Below, one piece after another: positions 103-52,139 of a stretch of DNA of 64,000 bases; the first letter of the stretch is position 1, and each line of letters begins with the position of its first letter. The stretch is from Norana najaformis (Eukaryota; Annelida; Clitellata; Crassiclitellata; Hormogastridae). The position numbers and the translations under genes were made by a program. The stretch lies in NCBI GenBank assembly GCA_964023275.1, contig OZ029921.1:31932230-31996229 (forward strand), in the 5' to 3' direction. Below the pieces are notes generated by a model. The model saw only the letters and a list, made by a program, of their open reading frames with translations, made no database searches and was not told the origin of the DNA.

Positions 103-3087
103 TATTCACAAGAAATCAGTGATATAGCCCTCTCTTCTCACCCGCCTGACATATTTGCCTTATCTGAAACCTGGTTTAATTTAAACACCACTCTTGCTCA
201 ATATGAAGACTGTATTCCTCCTGGCTACCATCTTTACAGTACACCTCGTCCCTGCAAACCATCTAGCCCTTCTCATAAAAATCCAACTGGCGATGGTATT
301 GCCTTTCTCACCCGAGAACCTGCCACAGTTTTAGACTCACCTGGTTACTGTTTCCACTCTTTTGAATGTGCATCAATTACGCTTAAACTTCCTCACACAA
401 ATCTGACTATCTTTAATGTATATCGCCCTCCATCCTCCTCTTCATATTCAAGTCCTCCATCGGTCTTCCTGAAAGAATTTACCACCCTCCTCTCTACTGC
501 CGCCACTACACCTCATGAATTTCTGATTACAGGTGACTTCAATATACATGTCGATAACCCCTCTGACACATTTGCTTCTGAATTCCTCACCCTATTGTCC
601 TCAACTAATCTGGTTCAACATGTCAAATTCCCCACCCACATTCACAATCACACACTTGACCTTATTATCACATCATCATTCTCCACTCTATCACCTGATA
701 TATCTTTCTCTTTTGACACGCCATCTGATCATTACCCCATCTTTACCTATCTTAACATTCTTCCGACACCACGTCCTGATCCTGTCTTTCATTCTTTTCG
801 TCGCATCAGTTCAATAAATATTGAAGCCTTCATACAAGATATTTCCTGTTCTGACCTCGTTTTAAATCCACCCTCCTCCCTGAATGACCTTCTCTCTTCC
901 TATAACACCACTCTTTCCACTATCCTTGACAAGCATGCTCCTATTATTACCAAATCCCGTTCTCACTCTAACAATCCTTGGTTCAATTCCTATCTCCAGG
1001 CCTTCAAATCTTTCCGGCGACGCCTTGAACGTGCCTATAAACGCACCAGGGATCCTCAACTTCTCTGTGCCCTTAAATCTGCCACAAATAAATACCATCG
1101 CCTTCTTACTGCAGCTAAACAAAGATTTTACTCCTCACTAGTTCGTTCTCGATCCTCTAGCCCTCGCCTTCTCTGGAAAACCATTAACCAGCTCCTCCAT
1201 CGGAACTCATCTAGCCCACTTCCAAATTCTCTTCCGTCTTCTTCAATAGCCGACTCGTTCTGTTCTTTCTTTTCGAACAAAATTAGTACCCTCCGTCTCT
1301 CTCTTCAATCTCTACTTTCCAAAACCTCCAACAATCCAGCTACTGATGCTCCCTCTTCCACCTATGACAGCCCACCTTCCCCACCTCGATCCTCATTTTC
1401 TGCTTTTCAACCTACATCAGAGACCGAAATACTAAATCTGCTAAAATCTCTCCCAAACAAACAATGTGAACTTGACCCTATACCTACCTCCTTATTGAAA
1501 GACTGTGCATCTGTCCTTGTTCCAATTATTACCAAAATAGTTAACCTCTCCCTCTCTACTGGAAATTTTCCCCTTCTTTTTAAACACTCTCTTGTTACCC
1601 CTCTTCTCAAGAAATCATCTCTCGACAAGAAAATCCTTTCTAACTACCGGCCTGTTTCTAACCTGACTTTCATCTCCAAATTAACTGAACGGATTGTCCT
1701 CTCTCGAATCAATGACTATTTAGCTTCTAACTCACTCATTAACCCACACCAGTCTGGTTTTACTAAACGCCACTCAACCGAAACTCTGCTGACATCTCTC
1801 TACAACAAGCTTGTTTCTGCCATTTCTCATCAACAGGTTTCTTGCCTCTGTCTCCTCGATATCTCTGCAGCCTTCGACACCATAGATCACAATATCTTAC
1901 TCCACCGACTTTCAACCTGGTTTGGTTTTGCTGACACTGCTCTCCTATGGATACAGTCTTATCTCTCCTCCCGCTCTTTCTCTGTTAAAACTTCGGAAGC
2001 CTCTTCTAAGTCATGCCCTCTCACTTGCGGAGTTCCACAAGGCTCCGTTCTTGGACCTCTTCTGTTTATCCTCTACACTACCCCACTCAGTTCACTCATT
2101 AAAGCATCCTCCGTTGACCATCACCTCTATGCTGATGACACCCAACTATTCATCTCTTTCTCTCCAAATTGTTTCAATGAATCTACAGATCATCTTCTTT
2201 GTGTGGTTAAACAAATCTCCTCTTGGATGACATCTAATCTCTTATGCCTGAACCCATCTAAAACTGAATTCATACTTATCGGCCTACGTGACCAGCTCAA
2301 GAAAATTCCTGACCCCTCTATCTCCCTCAGCCTGGACTCTGCCTCCACCCACACCTTTAATACTAACTCTTCTGTCCGTAATTTAGGTGTTATTTTCGAC
2401 CAGAACCTTACTTTTTCTGATCATATCACCCATCTTTCCCGCTCTTGCTTTATGCATATCCGCGACCTTCGCAGAATCCGTCCTATGCTTGACTTCAAAA
2501 CCGCATCTATCATTGCCACATCCATAGTCCATGCAAAACTTGACTACTGCAATTCACTTTTCCTCAATATTGACACAACCCAGATACATCGCCTACAAGC
2601 TATCCAGAATGCTCTCGCACGTGCTGTCACCAAAACCCCCAAACACCATCACATCACCCCTGTTCTCAAATCACTGCACTGGCTTAAAATACCAGAACGA
2701 ATAGAGTACAAGGTCTTATCCCTCACCTACAACACACTTCAATCCTCCCAACCCTCCTATCTTCGTCAATTATTTACTATCCAACCACTCCGTTCAACCC
2801 GCTCCTCATCTGTCCTAACACTTCTTCGCCCTCCAGTCACCTCATCCTTAAAATTTGGAAATCGCTCGATAGCCATAGCTGCCCCACCCCTTTGGAATAA
2901 ACTCCCGCCAGAATTGCGACAGTTGTCTGGTCCATCATACGAACTCACCAACACTTCACCTCTTTCAGTTTCTGCGCAGGTCTTTCACTCAAGACTGAAA
3001 ACACTTCTTTTCCAAAAATCTTATCCTGATTCTTCCTCTTCCTCTTATCTCTCTTCTCGCTTCAATTTCAAACAGCATCCACCGTAG
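103..3087 (+). CDS. Endonuclease-reverse transcriptase of a LINE (N-terminus missing)
   Basis: This would make the apurinic-like endonuclease and reverse transcriptase that nick target DNA and prime reverse transcription of the element's own RNA. Endonuclease motifs visible in frame are SETWF (about 163-177), YRPP, GDFNIHVD (about 532-555), HTLDLIIT and SDHYPI (about 724-741). Reverse transcriptase motifs are AAFDTIDHNIL (about 1868-1900), GVPQGSVLGPLLF (about 2029-2070) and YADDTQLF with the catalytic Asp pair at 2134-2139. A C-terminal LWNKLPPELRQ / FHSRLKTLLF segment, typical of the CR1/L2 group, lies near 2890-3020. The first in-frame Met is at about 610 or later, but homology clearly starts upstream, so the N-terminus is truncated. 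No frameshift or stop was seen. It is unlikely to be mobile by itself because of the truncation. Confidence 0.9.
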   Translation, partial: YSQEISDIALSSHPPDIFALSETWFNLNTTLAQYEDCIPPGYHLYSTPRPCKPSSPSHKNPTGDGIAFLTREPATVLDSPGYCFHSFECASITLKLPHTNLTIFNVYRPPSSSSYSSPPSVFLKEFTTLLSTAATTPHEFLITGDFNIHVDNPSDTFASEFLTLLSSTNLVQHVKFPTHIHNHTLDLIITSSFSTLSPDISFSFDTPSDHYPIFTYLNILPTPRPDPVFHSFRRISSINIEAFIQDISCSDLVLNPPSSLNDLLSSYNTTLSTILDKHAPIITKSRSHSNNPWFNSYLQAFKSFRRRLERAYKRTRDPQLLCALKSATNKYHRLLTAAKQRFYSSLVRSRSSSPRLLWKTINQLLHRNSSSPLPNSLPSSSIADSFCSFFSNKISTLRLSLQSLLSKTSNNPATDAPSSTYDSPPSPPRSSFSAFQPTSETEILNLLKSLPNKQCELDPIPTSLLKDCASVLVPIITKIVNLSLSTGNFPLLFKHSLVTPLLKKSSLDKKILSNYRPVSNLTFISKLTERIVLSRINDYLASNSLINPHQSGFTKRHSTETLLTSLYNKLVSAISHQQVSCLCLLDISAAFDTIDHNILLHRLSTWFGFADTALLWIQSYLSSRSFSVKTSEASSKSCPLTCGVPQGSVLGPLLFILYTTPLSSLIKASSVDHHLYADDTQLFISFSPNCFNESTDHLLCVVKQISSWMTSNLLCLNPSKTEFILIGLRDQLKKIPDPSISLSLDSASTHTFNTNSSVRNLGVIFDQNLTFSDHITHLSRSCFMHIRDLRRIRPMLDFKTASIIATSIVHAKLDYCNSLFLNIDTTQIHRLQAIQNALARAVTKTPKHHHITPVLKSLHWLKIPERIEYKVLSLTYNTLQSSQPSYLRQLFTIQPLRSTRSSSVLTLLRPPVTSSLKFGNRSIAIAAPPLWNKLPPELRQLSGPSYELTNTSPLSVSAQVFHSRLKTLLFQKSYPDSSSSSYLSSRFNFKQHPP

Positions 3088-47698: not shown

Positions 47699-48688
47699 TC
47701 ATTTCCCTCCGATGAGATGCCTGGAGTGTGGAAGCCGAAAGTCTACGTCTGGCCCAGCGGAAACGATTCCATACGGATTTAGTTTCCTCATCGACGTCTC
47801 GTAGTGCTTTCTGATGTGCTCCATGTCGACGGTGCTTCCCACTCCGTCCACCTGGAACACATTCCTCAGATAGGGCCAGAGATTCGGGTAGTCGACAACG
47901 CGCTTCCAGTTGCACTTGAACATACCGACGTAGACGGCGTCGAATCTGACCAGGGTCACGAAGAGACTGAGGTCCGCTTCCGTCAGATGTCCTCCGGTAA
48001 GGTACCGCTTGTCGGCGAGTATCAGATCGACTCGGTCGAGCGCCGAGAAGACCCTGGTAACGGCATCGTCGTACTCGGCCTGAGTGGTGGTCAGTCCAGC
48101 GTCGTAGACCCCGTGATTGAGATCCGTCGAAATCCAGGCGTTCAGCTCATCGATTTCCGCTTCGAGGTTCGAAGGACGTAGGTTCAGAATCCTCTGCCCC
48201 TCCGTTGCGCACGAGTCATTGAAATTGGCATTTAAAAGCCGAACGATATCCGCCGACGCTGTACTTACCAACTTCTTCGAAGTCTTGTCCCAGAGTACCG
48301 GAAAGGTCACTTTGCCCGAGTATCCGTTATCTGGGCGTCCGGATGAGGCTAGGGAGTATACCTTGCGCAGGTAGTGACACCCATTGATGTCTGGAGTGCA
48401 CCAGGGACCCCGATTCGAGAACTCCCATCCCTTCGCCTCTTCCACTGCCCAGTCAGCGATGGTACAGGTGACGGCAGCCTCGAGGCCCTTGAGTCGACGC
48501 GCGATCAGGGTCTTTTGCGCCCAGGGACAGGCCATGGAGGCGCACAGGTGGTATCTACCGCTTTCGCCTTTGAAGCCCTCTTTTGCCTTGCCCGCAGAAC
48601 CTCGAAAGTAGATCGACTGGTCCCAGTTTTCCGCTTGAACCAACTGCTTCTCAACTTCTGCCTCGCTGTCGGCAGACGAACCCGCCAT
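47699..48688 (-). CDS. Glutathionyl-hydroquinone reductase (Xi-class glutathione transferase), intronless
   Basis: Enzymes of this family (YqjG/ECM4/PcpF type) use a catalytic cysteine to reduce glutathionyl-hydroquinones to hydroquinones, releasing oxidised glutathione; cytosolic. The 329-residue product has the family layout: WDQSIYFRG near residue 22, RYHLCASMACPWAQKTLIAR with the catalytic Cys at 54 (codon 48527-48529), KVTFPVLWD and a C-terminal all-helical GST domain with LTEADLSLFVTLVRFDAVY and NLWPYLRNVFQ. The ATG at 48688 has A at -3 and G at +4. It is a single exon, notably GC-richer than its surroundings, in a window where other host genes have many introns. The family is common in bacteria, fungi, plants and some archaea and patchy in animals as far as I know. 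No break seen; likely functional. Confidence 0.92.
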   Translation of the reverse strand: MAGSSADSEAEVEKQLVQAENWDQSIYFRGSAGKAKEGFKGESGRYHLCASMACPWAQKTLIARRLKGLEAAVTCTIADWAVEEAKGWEFSNRGPWCTPDINGCHYLRKVYSLASSGRPDNGYSGKVTFPVLWDKTSKKLVSTASADIVRLLNANFNDSCATEGQRILNLRPSNLEAEIDELNAWISTDLNHGVYDAGLTTTQAEYDDAVTRVFSALDRVDLILADKRYLTGGHLTEADLSLFVTLVRFDAVYVGMFKCNWKRVVDYPNLWPYLRNVFQVDGVGSTVDMEHIRKHYETSMRKLNPYGIVSAGPDVDFRLPHSRHLIGGK

Positions 48689-48737
48689 CTTCAACGAACG
48701 GACGACTTTAGACTTGTGATAAGTCCATAACCGTTTT

Positions 48738-48745: not shown

Positions 48746-49483
48746 GCGCCGTGCAGTGTTAACCGCACAAATTCAAATTAAATGGCAAGAGTAATATAAA
48801 CATACAGGAAAAATGCAGTTTGAATTGCTAATCATACATATTTATATAGAGTCATATATTATAGTATTGTCTGCGAAAGCAGACACCAGTGTGCATTGAA
48901 TGCTTATGGACAAATTGTCCATTTCCAGCAGACTGTACTTATATTTATCTTGCTACTGTCGGTAATATCTAAGCATTTTAAAAACATATCAGTGGCTTAG
49001 ACAGACGAATAGTTATTGCGAACTTTTAGAGATTAGTTAGACACTTTATTAATTAGGCATATGTATCAAGTGGTTATACAGAATAATTTTGCTTGACTAC
49101 CAGACAATGTACGTTTGCAACAGCTGAGTGTCTGCGCTATTTTTACAAGAAATATGTAATGTACACATTAATATTATAGAAAATTAATACGCGCATGAGC
49201 ATGCGTGTATCTATAGTCTGCTGGAATGCAGTGGTTTCCGCTAGAGGGGTCAAATTATTCTCGCTGGGTGGCGCTTTTCTTTTCATGTCCGGTCGTCAGT
49301 TTCGCCTCAGTCGTCGCCTCGGGGACTTTCACCGGCCGTCCGCAAGACAAGACTGCATCGTCGTCGTCGTCGTCGTCGTCATCGTCGTGTATACACAAGG
49401 CAGGCAACGCACGAACATTGCAGGCCGGCTGGCACTGCGCATAAGGATCTACAGCCTGTGCAGTAGGCCTACATTAATTACAC

Positions 49484-49610
49484 TGGCCAACACATAATTT
49501 GTTGCCTCAAATGTTAGAACTGTTTCTGGGTATATTTGACCTGCTGATTCCAGAAAAGGCACCAGTTTTCTCCCAGCAGGTCTAGTTTTCGAGATATAGA
49601 ACACTATGCC
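49484..49610. repeat. Left terminal inverted repeat of the 49.5-52.1 kb element
   Basis: Begins TGGCCAACA and contains GTTGCCT (about 49501), CCAGAAAA (about 49550) and CAGGTCTAGTTTTCGAGATA (49577-49596), in the same order as the complement of the right end. Confidence 0.7.
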
Positions 49611-49796
49611 ATATACCAGTCCTTGCCTCTGCTCGCCCATAAAACATAAGGCTATAGCTATAATTATGTAGTGCTCAATTTATTATGTGATACACTAAAT
49701 AAACATAATAATACAAATACTTAAAAGAAAATGGTAGTACCTGAAACTGTACTTATATGATACCAAACAGAACAAGTTTGTTATAAAAATTTCAAG

Positions 49797-51499
49797 TCAT
49801 TCGACACCGAAGAAGCTCCTTTTGTACGATTTCCGAGTGTGGCATCTGCCGGAACAATCGCGCATAATATTCCAGCAATAGTCTGCCATCATGTGTGCAT
49901 CCCATCTTCCTTGATATCGATTTTCCATTGTTTTGATGTCTTGGTGAAATCTTTCACCTTGCTCTTCGCTGAAGTCACCAAGATTCTCTGGAAAGCGATC
50001 TAAGTGACTGTGGAGATAATGGACTTTAATGCTCATGTTGCAGCCAAGCTTGTTGAAATGAAGAAGCATATCCTCTACTAGTTGTGCATAATTGTCTGCC
50101 TTCTTGTTGCCAAGAAAATTTTTAGTTACAAGAACAAAGGAAGACCAGGCACAAGATTCGATTTCATTCATTGATGGTATGAAAAGTGGGTCATTCATAA
50201 GTTGCCTGATCTGTGGACCATCGAAGATTCCAGCCTTCAATTTTTCCATTGTAATTCCTGGTAACTTGTGTACTATGTATTCGAAGCATGAACCTTCTTT
50301 ATTCAAAGCCCTGACAAATTGTTTCATCAGGCCTAGCTTTATATGTAGTGGTGGCAGTATGATCCTATCTCGTGCCACCAAAGATTCCTTGATTACATTT
50401 TGAGCTCCAACCACCATGTCTTTCCTCGAAGGCCAATCTTTTCTTGTCCAATGTTCATGCATGGCTCTACTGTCCCAAAGACACAAAAAGCAGGGATACT
50501 TTGTGTAGCCACTTTGTTGACCAAGGAGGAAATTTACCATCTTCAAGTCTACACAAATTACCCATTGATGTTCTTTGTATTTTATCTTTTCCAGTACTAA
50601 AGAGATGGCATTGTACTCTTCTTTCATCCTGGTGGACTGACCGATTGGAATAGAACCAAATTTGTTGCCGTTATTTAAAAGCACACATTTCAGACTACGT
50701 TTTGAACTGTCGATAAAAAGACGCCACTCATCTGGGCTGTAATCCGACAGACCAATTTTCTTCAATAAGTTGCTGATGTCATTACAGAATACTAGGTTGT
50801 TGTCTTCGGTAAAGAATGGCAGCAAATCCTTTTCTCTGTTTCTATAAATTGTAATTTTCGTTCCAGGCTGAAGTGCATTCTTTTCCTTTAGTCTGGACGC
50901 AAGCAATTCAGAGGACTCTTTGGAATGATTTAAGTCCCTGATCAGATCACTCAACTCTTTTTGGTCAAAACGTTCACTGTGTGAAGTTGATTGGAAATCA
51001 CTGTCACTGCCCCCAATTTCTTCACTTTCGTCATCTTGTCCGATATTGGACATGCAAGTCTCATCGTCTGAGAGCTGAGGTAGTTCGCGAAAAGGTGGAA
51101 CTGGTACAATATCCGAATGCGGAACAGGTCTCCTGTCTGAAGGTATATCAGGGTAAGACAACTTGTGACGATTATTTCGATTGATGCCTATGATATTAAC
51201 TATACAAAAGTAACAGTCGTCGAAGTGGTTTATCTGTTCCCTCCAAACCATCGGTACACCAAATTCAGGCAGCTTCTCTTTCCAATTGTCCAGTGGCGCA
51301 ATTGTTCAATACAAGTTTTGCATACTGTATGAGGAGCCCATTGCTTATCTTGATCTCCAAGTTTGACACCAAAATAACCTACATATGCTCTTTTTACAAA
51401 CTCAGAAATCGGTTTCCTGTTTGCTTTTAGTGTGTATTCCCCACAAATGTAGCAGAATATGTCTGGATGGTTAATGCAGCTCCGTCTGGAAGTAGCCAT
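49797..51499 (-). pseudogene. Uncharacterised conserved protein, putative transposase, one frameshift
   Basis: Two overlapping frames form one family protein. The first (start 51499) has C16-x2-C19 and C60-x2-C63, a likely zinc-binding module, and the LGDQDKQWAPHTVC block. The second (484 codons, 51251-49797) has MVWREQ, RLFIDSSKRSLKCVLL, WVICVDLKMVNFLLGQQ, GYTKYPCFLCLWDSR, PPLHIKLGLMKQFV, FDGPQIRQL and EEQGERFHQDIKTMENRYQG. I recognise these blocks from many unnamed invertebrate proteins. The frames switch by one base near 51266-51272, in the middle of a conserved stretch, so the copy is either freshly broken or affected by a base error. Asp181, Asp235 and Glu433 (second-frame numbering) are candidates for a DDE-type triad; this is my inference, not established. 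Confidence 0.75.
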
Positions 51500-51959
51500 A
51501 ACCTTAAGGATGTTGGCATCTGAGGAATTAAATGACTAACCTAAAAAATAGTAAGAACATGTAGTTATTTAATGCTCACATTCACAGATTGTTCTTGCGA
51601 CCAACTCTTAATATGCCGTAAGACGACTGCGGCTGCTCTAGCTTTCAGGAGGCGGTTTATATAGGCTATAAATGCTGACTTCAGCATAATCTATTTACAT
51701 AGTTCGAAACCATGAAACGCTTTATAAGCACAAATAAATTCTAAATGAGGCCATGAATTTAGTGCTGAGTAAGCTGTAGGCTACGGAATAGTTATTTCGT
51801 TGAATCAGCAATATCTCAGCACGCGGCAAGATATGCTGATTTTACATTATAAGGATGTAGGCATTATATGAATCAGCAAGAATTATAATTAGCCATAAAT
51901 AAAGCTTATTATGACATTTTAGTTTTGCCAAAGACATCGTTTAAAGAGTGGACTGGGTT

Positions 51960-52081
51960 TTCTTTACAAAATCGACGATATCTCAGAAACTAGACCTGAT
52001 GCACTCAATCCAATGACATTTTCTGAATAGGCCTACATTAAAACCGAAGGCAACAAGAAAAAAATTTTTTTCTGTTGGCCA
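51960..52081. repeat. Right terminal inverted repeat of the 49.5-52.1 kb element
   Basis: Contains ATATCTCAGAAACTAGACCTG (in parts, from about 51979), TTTTCTGAATAGG, AGGCAACAAG and TGTTGGCCA ending at 52081; the complement aligns with the left end. Confidence 0.7.
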
Positions 52082-52139
52082 TTACCATGAATGACACGTA
52101 AACAATAATGAATACAGGTAAAGTTTGATGAATTTATAA

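Follow-up and report, generated by a model that had tools for sequence, protein, structure and literature searches.

Chapaev transposons have CAC and GTG ends and target-site duplications (TSDs) of 3-4 bp, and every Chapaev3 element examined in the corresponding study had a TWA TSD flanked by A and T (PMC4079192). The silkworm Chapaev3 transposase has 556 aa and carries the motifs C(2)C, LH, and H(4)H (PMC4079192). The longest Merrow and Garfield elements measure 2,289-2,455 bp and encode 554-562 aa in two exons, most other Chapaev3 genes have a single exon, and the tabulated elements range overall from 295 to 3,363 bp (PMC4079192). The copy numbers tabulated in the same source include more than 254 for Merrow_PM and 281 for a short Conan derivative (PMC4079192). 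Chapaev3, with Merrow, Garfield, and Conan, was reported by Kapitonov and Jurka in Repbase Reports in 2008, as cited in PMC4411706, where the group belongs to the Transib superfamily, has an N-terminal Chapa zinc finger, and is a distant relative of RAG1. The motif set given for CMC/Transib transposases includes C(2)C and H(3-4)H (PMC12730594).

The window, a stretch of 64,000 nt from the genome of Norana najaformis, harbours at positions 49481-52081 one damaged copy of a DNA transposon, whose ends read CACTGGCCAACA...TGTTGGCCAGTG in intact form. We assign the element with high confidence to the cut-and-paste transposon group Chapaev3 (CMC/Transib group), based on published hallmarks and not on direct sequence comparison. 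The unnamed gene that it carries very probably encodes a cut-and-paste transposon enzyme, of which many recent copies have been made. The boundary features of the window copy are the following.

49478..49480, no strand: left TSD copy TTA, preceded by A (from the sequence; 3-bp TSDs occur in 24/29 other copies)
49481..52081, minus (strand of the gene): whole element, very likely a Chapaev3-type copy; homology to 40 other fetched loci stops here
49481..49597, plus: left terminal inverted repeat with the tip CACTGGCCAACA (inverted alignment and genome copies)
51978..52081, minus: right terminal inverted repeat, GTG gone from the tip, inner damage at 52028-52041 (inverted alignment and genome copies)
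52028..52041, plus: TAGGCCTACATTAA, identical to the host flank 49464-49477, in place of right-end sequence (repeat comparison and genome copies)
52082..52084, no strand: right TSD copy TTA, followed by C instead of the usual T (from the sequence; terminal GTG absent in this copy)

Inverted ends were present where the earlier note had placed them, with TGGCCAACA exact at 49484-49492 and 52073-52081, and an inner 24-nt pair (49574-49597 and 51978-52001) is 88% complementary. The 21-mer CAGGTCTAGTTTNNGAGATAT has exactly two matches at up to three mismatches, both in the inverted ends, against 0.03 expected. The score of the inverted flank alignment (56.2) was reached by none of 2,000 linked random placements, and by six out of 2,000 pairs of unlinked segments from the window. 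In an earlier tip-anchored test, one of 2,981 random pairs gave an equal score. The genome copies show that the true ends, CAC...GTG, lie three bases outside those suggested by the window alone, and the left end of the window copy is therefore 49481. Read from the window alone, ATTAC or TTAC could be taken as an offset TSD. This reading was rejected, as the copies give TTA and a lost right GTG.

The element measures 2,601 bp in the window copy and approximately 2,625 bp in intact copies. Near 52028, the window copy has by eye 11 bp in place of the 31 bp of its nearest relative, locus L048. Its gene, on the minus strand, is split by a frameshift into two overlapping frames of 89 aa and 484 aa. 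Since the protein is not in one frame and the right end is damaged, the copy is probably dead, or reliant on transposase from other copies. Two further frames of the window were read by eye. A frame of 331 aa just outside the element (47699-48694, minus strand) has what we take to be a glutathione-transferase-type look, and a frame of 830 aa (595-3087, plus strand) resembles a non-LTR reverse transcriptase.

The genome of the window (608 Mb, 17 contigs) was searched for other copies. At least 88 protein matches, scored out of 6,016 first-look candidates, were found, all at 98-100% identity. All 88 span the 484-aa frame, one of them from residue 2, and two have one internal stop. Forty of the 88 scored matches, the top of the protein ranking, were fetched with their flanks as loci L009-L048. 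Seven shorter duplicates (L001 and L003-L008, duplicating L048 and L009-L014) and the window copy itself (L002) were dropped. The left tip lies at the identical base in 37 of the 40 fetched loci, and the flanks differ. The exact terminal 12-mer CACTGGCCAACA occurs at 2,856 sites of the genome, against 25 for the reversed control. The first 100 tips listed all lie on one contig; they form 34 pairs with a spacing of 2,600-2,640 bp and three pairs with a shorter spacing, and 26 have no partner. Very roughly, this extrapolates to 900-1,000 full-length copies in which both tips are exact, if the stretch of the first 100 tips is typical. With 160 bp of the left end as query, a DNA search yielded four places; it skipped common words and is hence uninformative on copy number.

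Mean divergence among the 29 two-ended copies and the window copy is 0.53% and the maximum is 1.12%, and this low divergence among 30 two-ended elements points to a recent amplification burst. Twenty-five out of 58 differences (43%) change the protein, against 77% expected. Intactness, low divergence, and the deficit of protein changes are upper-end figures, because the loci were taken from the highest ranks of the protein matches.

The earlier note had proposed to look for gene copies lacking the flanking repeats and for TSDs in full copies, and both tests favoured a transposon. The ends are common to the fetched copies, and an exact 3-bp TSD was found in 24 of the 29 loci that match both end patterns; the 11 loci without one recognisable end were left out of this count. 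Swapped flank pairs match in 211 out of 812 cases (26%), because the flanks are AT-rich. The 24 TSDs are TTA (11), TAA (8), TAT (2), AAA (1), ATA (1), and TTT (1). TWA thus accounts for 19 of them, and A before and T after the TSD were found in 20. Among ten elements picked by position, nine have a 3-bp TSD, and six of the nine are TWA. Copies without an exact 3-bp TSD were therefore found in both sets (5/29 two-ended and 1/10 position-picked), as were exact TSDs other than TWA (5/24 and 3/9). Genome-wide, ATWA directly precedes 1,906 of the 2,856 tips, and none in the reversed control. When the flanks of L023 are joined, they match a related site without the element in L038, across the junction and at 72% identity; this site has the triplet TGG at the place of TTA in L023. 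Copy number, common ends, 3-bp TSDs, and this one diverged element-free site strongly support the claim that the protein lies within a DNA transposon bounded by terminal inverted repeats.

A domesticated host gene of transposon origin, flanked by chance repeats, was also considered, and the window copy alone could be read in this way. We regard this explanation as already refuted, given that the fetched copies share their ends, differ in their flanks, and mostly have individual TSDs, that the genome contains 2,856 tips, and that the window copy is itself frameshifted.

At the true ends, 5-bp and 4-bp TSD matches were each found in 0/29 copies. Transib elements have TSDs of 5 bp, in contrast to 3 bp in the window family, in which the 5-bp trait is missing. 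Sola2, the first candidate considered, is likewise a DNA transposon bounded by terminal inverted repeats, and was rejected on TSD length, which is 4 bp in Sola2 (PMC3627910) and 3 bp in the window family.

Locus L074 (C1:908934-909073) has two tips 17 bp apart, in the arrangement ATAA-CACTGGCCAACACATAA-CACTGGCCAACAG. It resembles the outcome of an insertion at an ATAA target that lay inside a left end of this same family.

A single uninterrupted frame of 567 aa is present in 28 of the 29 other two-ended fetched copies, with L048 as the exception; over 20 shuffles of the window, the longest stop-to-stop frame had 181 codons. The features of the gene in the window copy are given below.

51230..51499, minus: ORF1, 89 aa, Cys-rich N-terminal portion of the transposase, followed by the frameshift; joined to ORF2 in 28/29 two-ended copies
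49797..51251, minus: ORF2, 484 aa, putative catalytic region; matched by 88 scored genome hits at 98-100%
50709..50711, minus: candidate first catalytic Asp codon, D181 of ORF2 and D264 of the 567-aa protein; end of a low-confidence predicted strand; 28/28 copies
50547..50549, minus: candidate second catalytic Asp codon, D235 and D318; directly after a low-confidence predicted strand; 28/28 copies
50481..50492, minus: C(2)C motif CFLC, 19 residues past the second Asp; C337/C340 in 28/28 copies; equal to the RAG1 D708-C727 spacing
50343..50348, minus: LH motif, L385-H386; 28/28 copies; a motif named for Chapaev in PMC4079192
50004..50021, minus: H(4)H motif HYLHSH, H494/H499; 28/28 copies; a motif named for Chapaev in PMC4079192
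49953..49967, minus: candidate catalytic Glu region EEQGE, E429/E430/E433 of ORF2; low-confidence predicted helix start; 28/28 copies

In the numbering of the 567-aa protein, the candidate Glu is E512, E513, or E516, each present in 28/28 copies. The choice of the catalytic Asp and Glu residues is putative, and presence in 28/28 copies reflects intactness rather than deep conservation, because the copies are near-identical. The paired N-terminal CxxC motifs that the earlier note had described were found as CYIC and CKTC, and the acidic residues that it had pointed out are likewise present. A weak match to zf-AD at the N-terminus (E 3e-4 and 0.0058) is under the gathering score of that model. 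In two single-sequence AlphaFold2 models, whose pLDDT of 36 is too low for them to serve as folds, the predicted order is strand-strand-strand-helix-strand-helix-strand-helix, with one Asp at the first strand, one Asp after the fourth, and the Glu in a late helix. At this model confidence, the order gives a hint of an RNase-H strand and helix succession with Asp, Asp, and Glu at DDE-like places. Foldseek and VIA-align revealed no significant structural match for these models. HIV integrase and other RNase-H-like folds appeared among many unrelated, non-significant rows.

Searches of Pfam and NCBIfam detected nothing above curated cut-off for the protein, including no Pfam transposase model. 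PHROGs gave no match, and among PDB sequences none was found at E<=1 (two rows at E 1.9). No relatives were found in IMG/VR, GTDB contigs, phages, or plasmids. A literature search for short peptide strings of the protein gave no match, and among the papers listed on unnamed or new superfamilies and on Sola nothing was recognised as this family; Chapaev papers led to the match. Rfam and tRNA scans of the window were unproductive. The empty Pfam, NCBIfam, PHROGs, and PDB searches would fit an undescribed superfamily, as the earlier note had suggested. We nonetheless consider a new superfamily extremely unlikely, since an absent Pfam model is a gap of the library and the testable hallmarks match a group described in 2007-2008 (PMC4079192, PMC4411706). 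Ends, TSD sequence, A/T context, size, and the C(2)C-LH-H(4)H succession are those given for Chapaev3 in PMC4079192. Of the proposed new DNA transposon, the transposon thus holds and the new superfamily does not. At most, the element represents a new family within the known Chapaev3 kind, and it is possibly in Repbase already. The Chapaev3 assignment supplies a likely name and mechanism for the protein.

As far as shown, the mechanism is ordinary and of a known kind. By analogy with the group, binding of the inverted repeats would fall to the N-terminal zinc fingers. Cleavage at the CAC tips would be the task of an RNase-H-like DDE core that contains an inserted domain, held in place by a zinc site of the C(2)C and H(4)H motifs. 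After excision, the freed 3' ends would attack the target with a 3-bp stagger. The copies themselves indicate insertion mostly at A^TWA^T, with the three middle bases duplicated.

Locus L048, on another contig, carries the same 484-aa frame as the window copy. At 10 substituted positions and one indel column, the two agree with each other against the majority of the other 28 copies. L048 possesses its own flanks and its own TTA duplication. Shared variants together with separate flanks and TSD indicate that a member of this sublineage transposed once the frameshift was already present, and it was probably mobilised in trans by the transposase of other copies.

Twelve copies have a missing or damaged end, namely 11 of the 40 fetched loci and the window copy. 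In seven out of the twelve, 14-43 exact bases of the flank of the intact end are found at the broken end, in direct orientation. Where the right end is damaged, the own left flank is copied at the break in four of nine copies (window 14 bp, L034 33, L036 43, and L039 25). These flank copies end 0-6 bp from the left tip, and for each of the four none of 37 other flanks matches equally well. The intact L035 has an 11-base A-rich flank match, likewise not reached by its controls. Where the left end is damaged, the right flank is copied at or near the break in three of three (L014 40 bp, L038 22, and L042 15), and their controls, two each, gave at most 9 bp.

Under a stricter measure, the suffix of the flank must end exactly at the tip or 3 bp from it. 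The window copy, L034, and L039 are retained, and L036, in which the flank copy ends 6 bp from the tip, is missed. L024 (9 bp) and L026 (8 bp) are added, with 0/37 controls each, and L010, L021, and L032 have no flank copy above controls by this measure. The 29 intact copies reach at most 8 bp. The case of the window copy alone is weakened by the over-representation of TAGGCCTA, found six times in the window (14243, 39037, 44158, 49464, 52028, and 52592) against approximately 0.8 expected. TAGGCCTACAT occurs three times on the plus strand of the window and once on the minus strand. An array at C1:4020208-4029858 (L069-L073) comprises partial elements with four tips in one orientation. In the same array, a 17-bp piece of the first unit's flank reappears ahead of the second unit, and identical 220-bp sequences lie upstream of the third and fourth.

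The flank copies at broken ends suggest integration by one end or repair with template switching. For L034 and the window copy, a simple one-ended insertion fails as an explanation, because distal right-end sequence comes after the flank copy, and these two might reflect template switching during repair. Tentatively, and with less confidence than doubt, we propose that many truncated copies integrated already truncated via one intact end, in a process dependent on synthesis or end joining that duplicated about 8-43 bp of target instead of 3 and could iterate into tandem arrays. If true, this would represent a second, replicative-looking mode of integration of a CMC/RAG-like transposase. The observation on truncated copies is a lead, because the sample is small and biased.

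The dozens of fresh, apparently intact copies provide material on how CAC-ended transposases cut, target A-TWA-T, and fail. The family is good study material because Chapaev3 is distantly related to RAG1 (PMC4411706). RAG1 has the residues D708, C727, C730, H937, H942, and E962 (PMC4914335). As in RAG1, the window protein has 19 residues from the candidate second Asp to the first Cys, a CxxC, and then an HxxxxH ahead of the candidate Glu residues. These candidates lie 13-17 residues past the second His in the window protein, compared with 20 in RAG1.

Membership in EnSpm/CACTA, or in another CMC/Transib branch than Chapaev3, is very unlikely. EnSpm shares CAC...GTG ends, 3-bp TSDs, C(2)C, and H(3-4)H (PMC12730594); the window family has these ends and this TSD length, and some of its TSDs are not TWA, which would also suit EnSpm. 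However, TWA between A and T is reported as a Chapaev3 preference (PMC4079192), and an unbroken reading frame, a length of 2.6 kb, and a protein of 567 aa agree with Chapaev3. The missing match to any Pfam transposase model also speaks, weakly, against EnSpm.

Similar to Chapaev3, the window family has CAC/GTG ends (in the 29 two-ended copies and in 2,856 exact 12-mers), an A-TWA-T target in most copies but not all, and C(2)C, LH, and H(4)H between the candidate second Asp and the candidate last Glu (in 28/28 copies of one family). The elements compared are 2.3-2.6 kb long and encode 554-567 aa. Chapaev3 elements examined in PMC4079192 all had TWA, whereas some TSDs of the window family differ from it. 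Unlike Merrow and Garfield with their two exons, the window family has one uninterrupted frame, as do most Chapaev3 elements, and its copy number is apparently higher than those tabulated for Merrow_PM and the Conan derivative.
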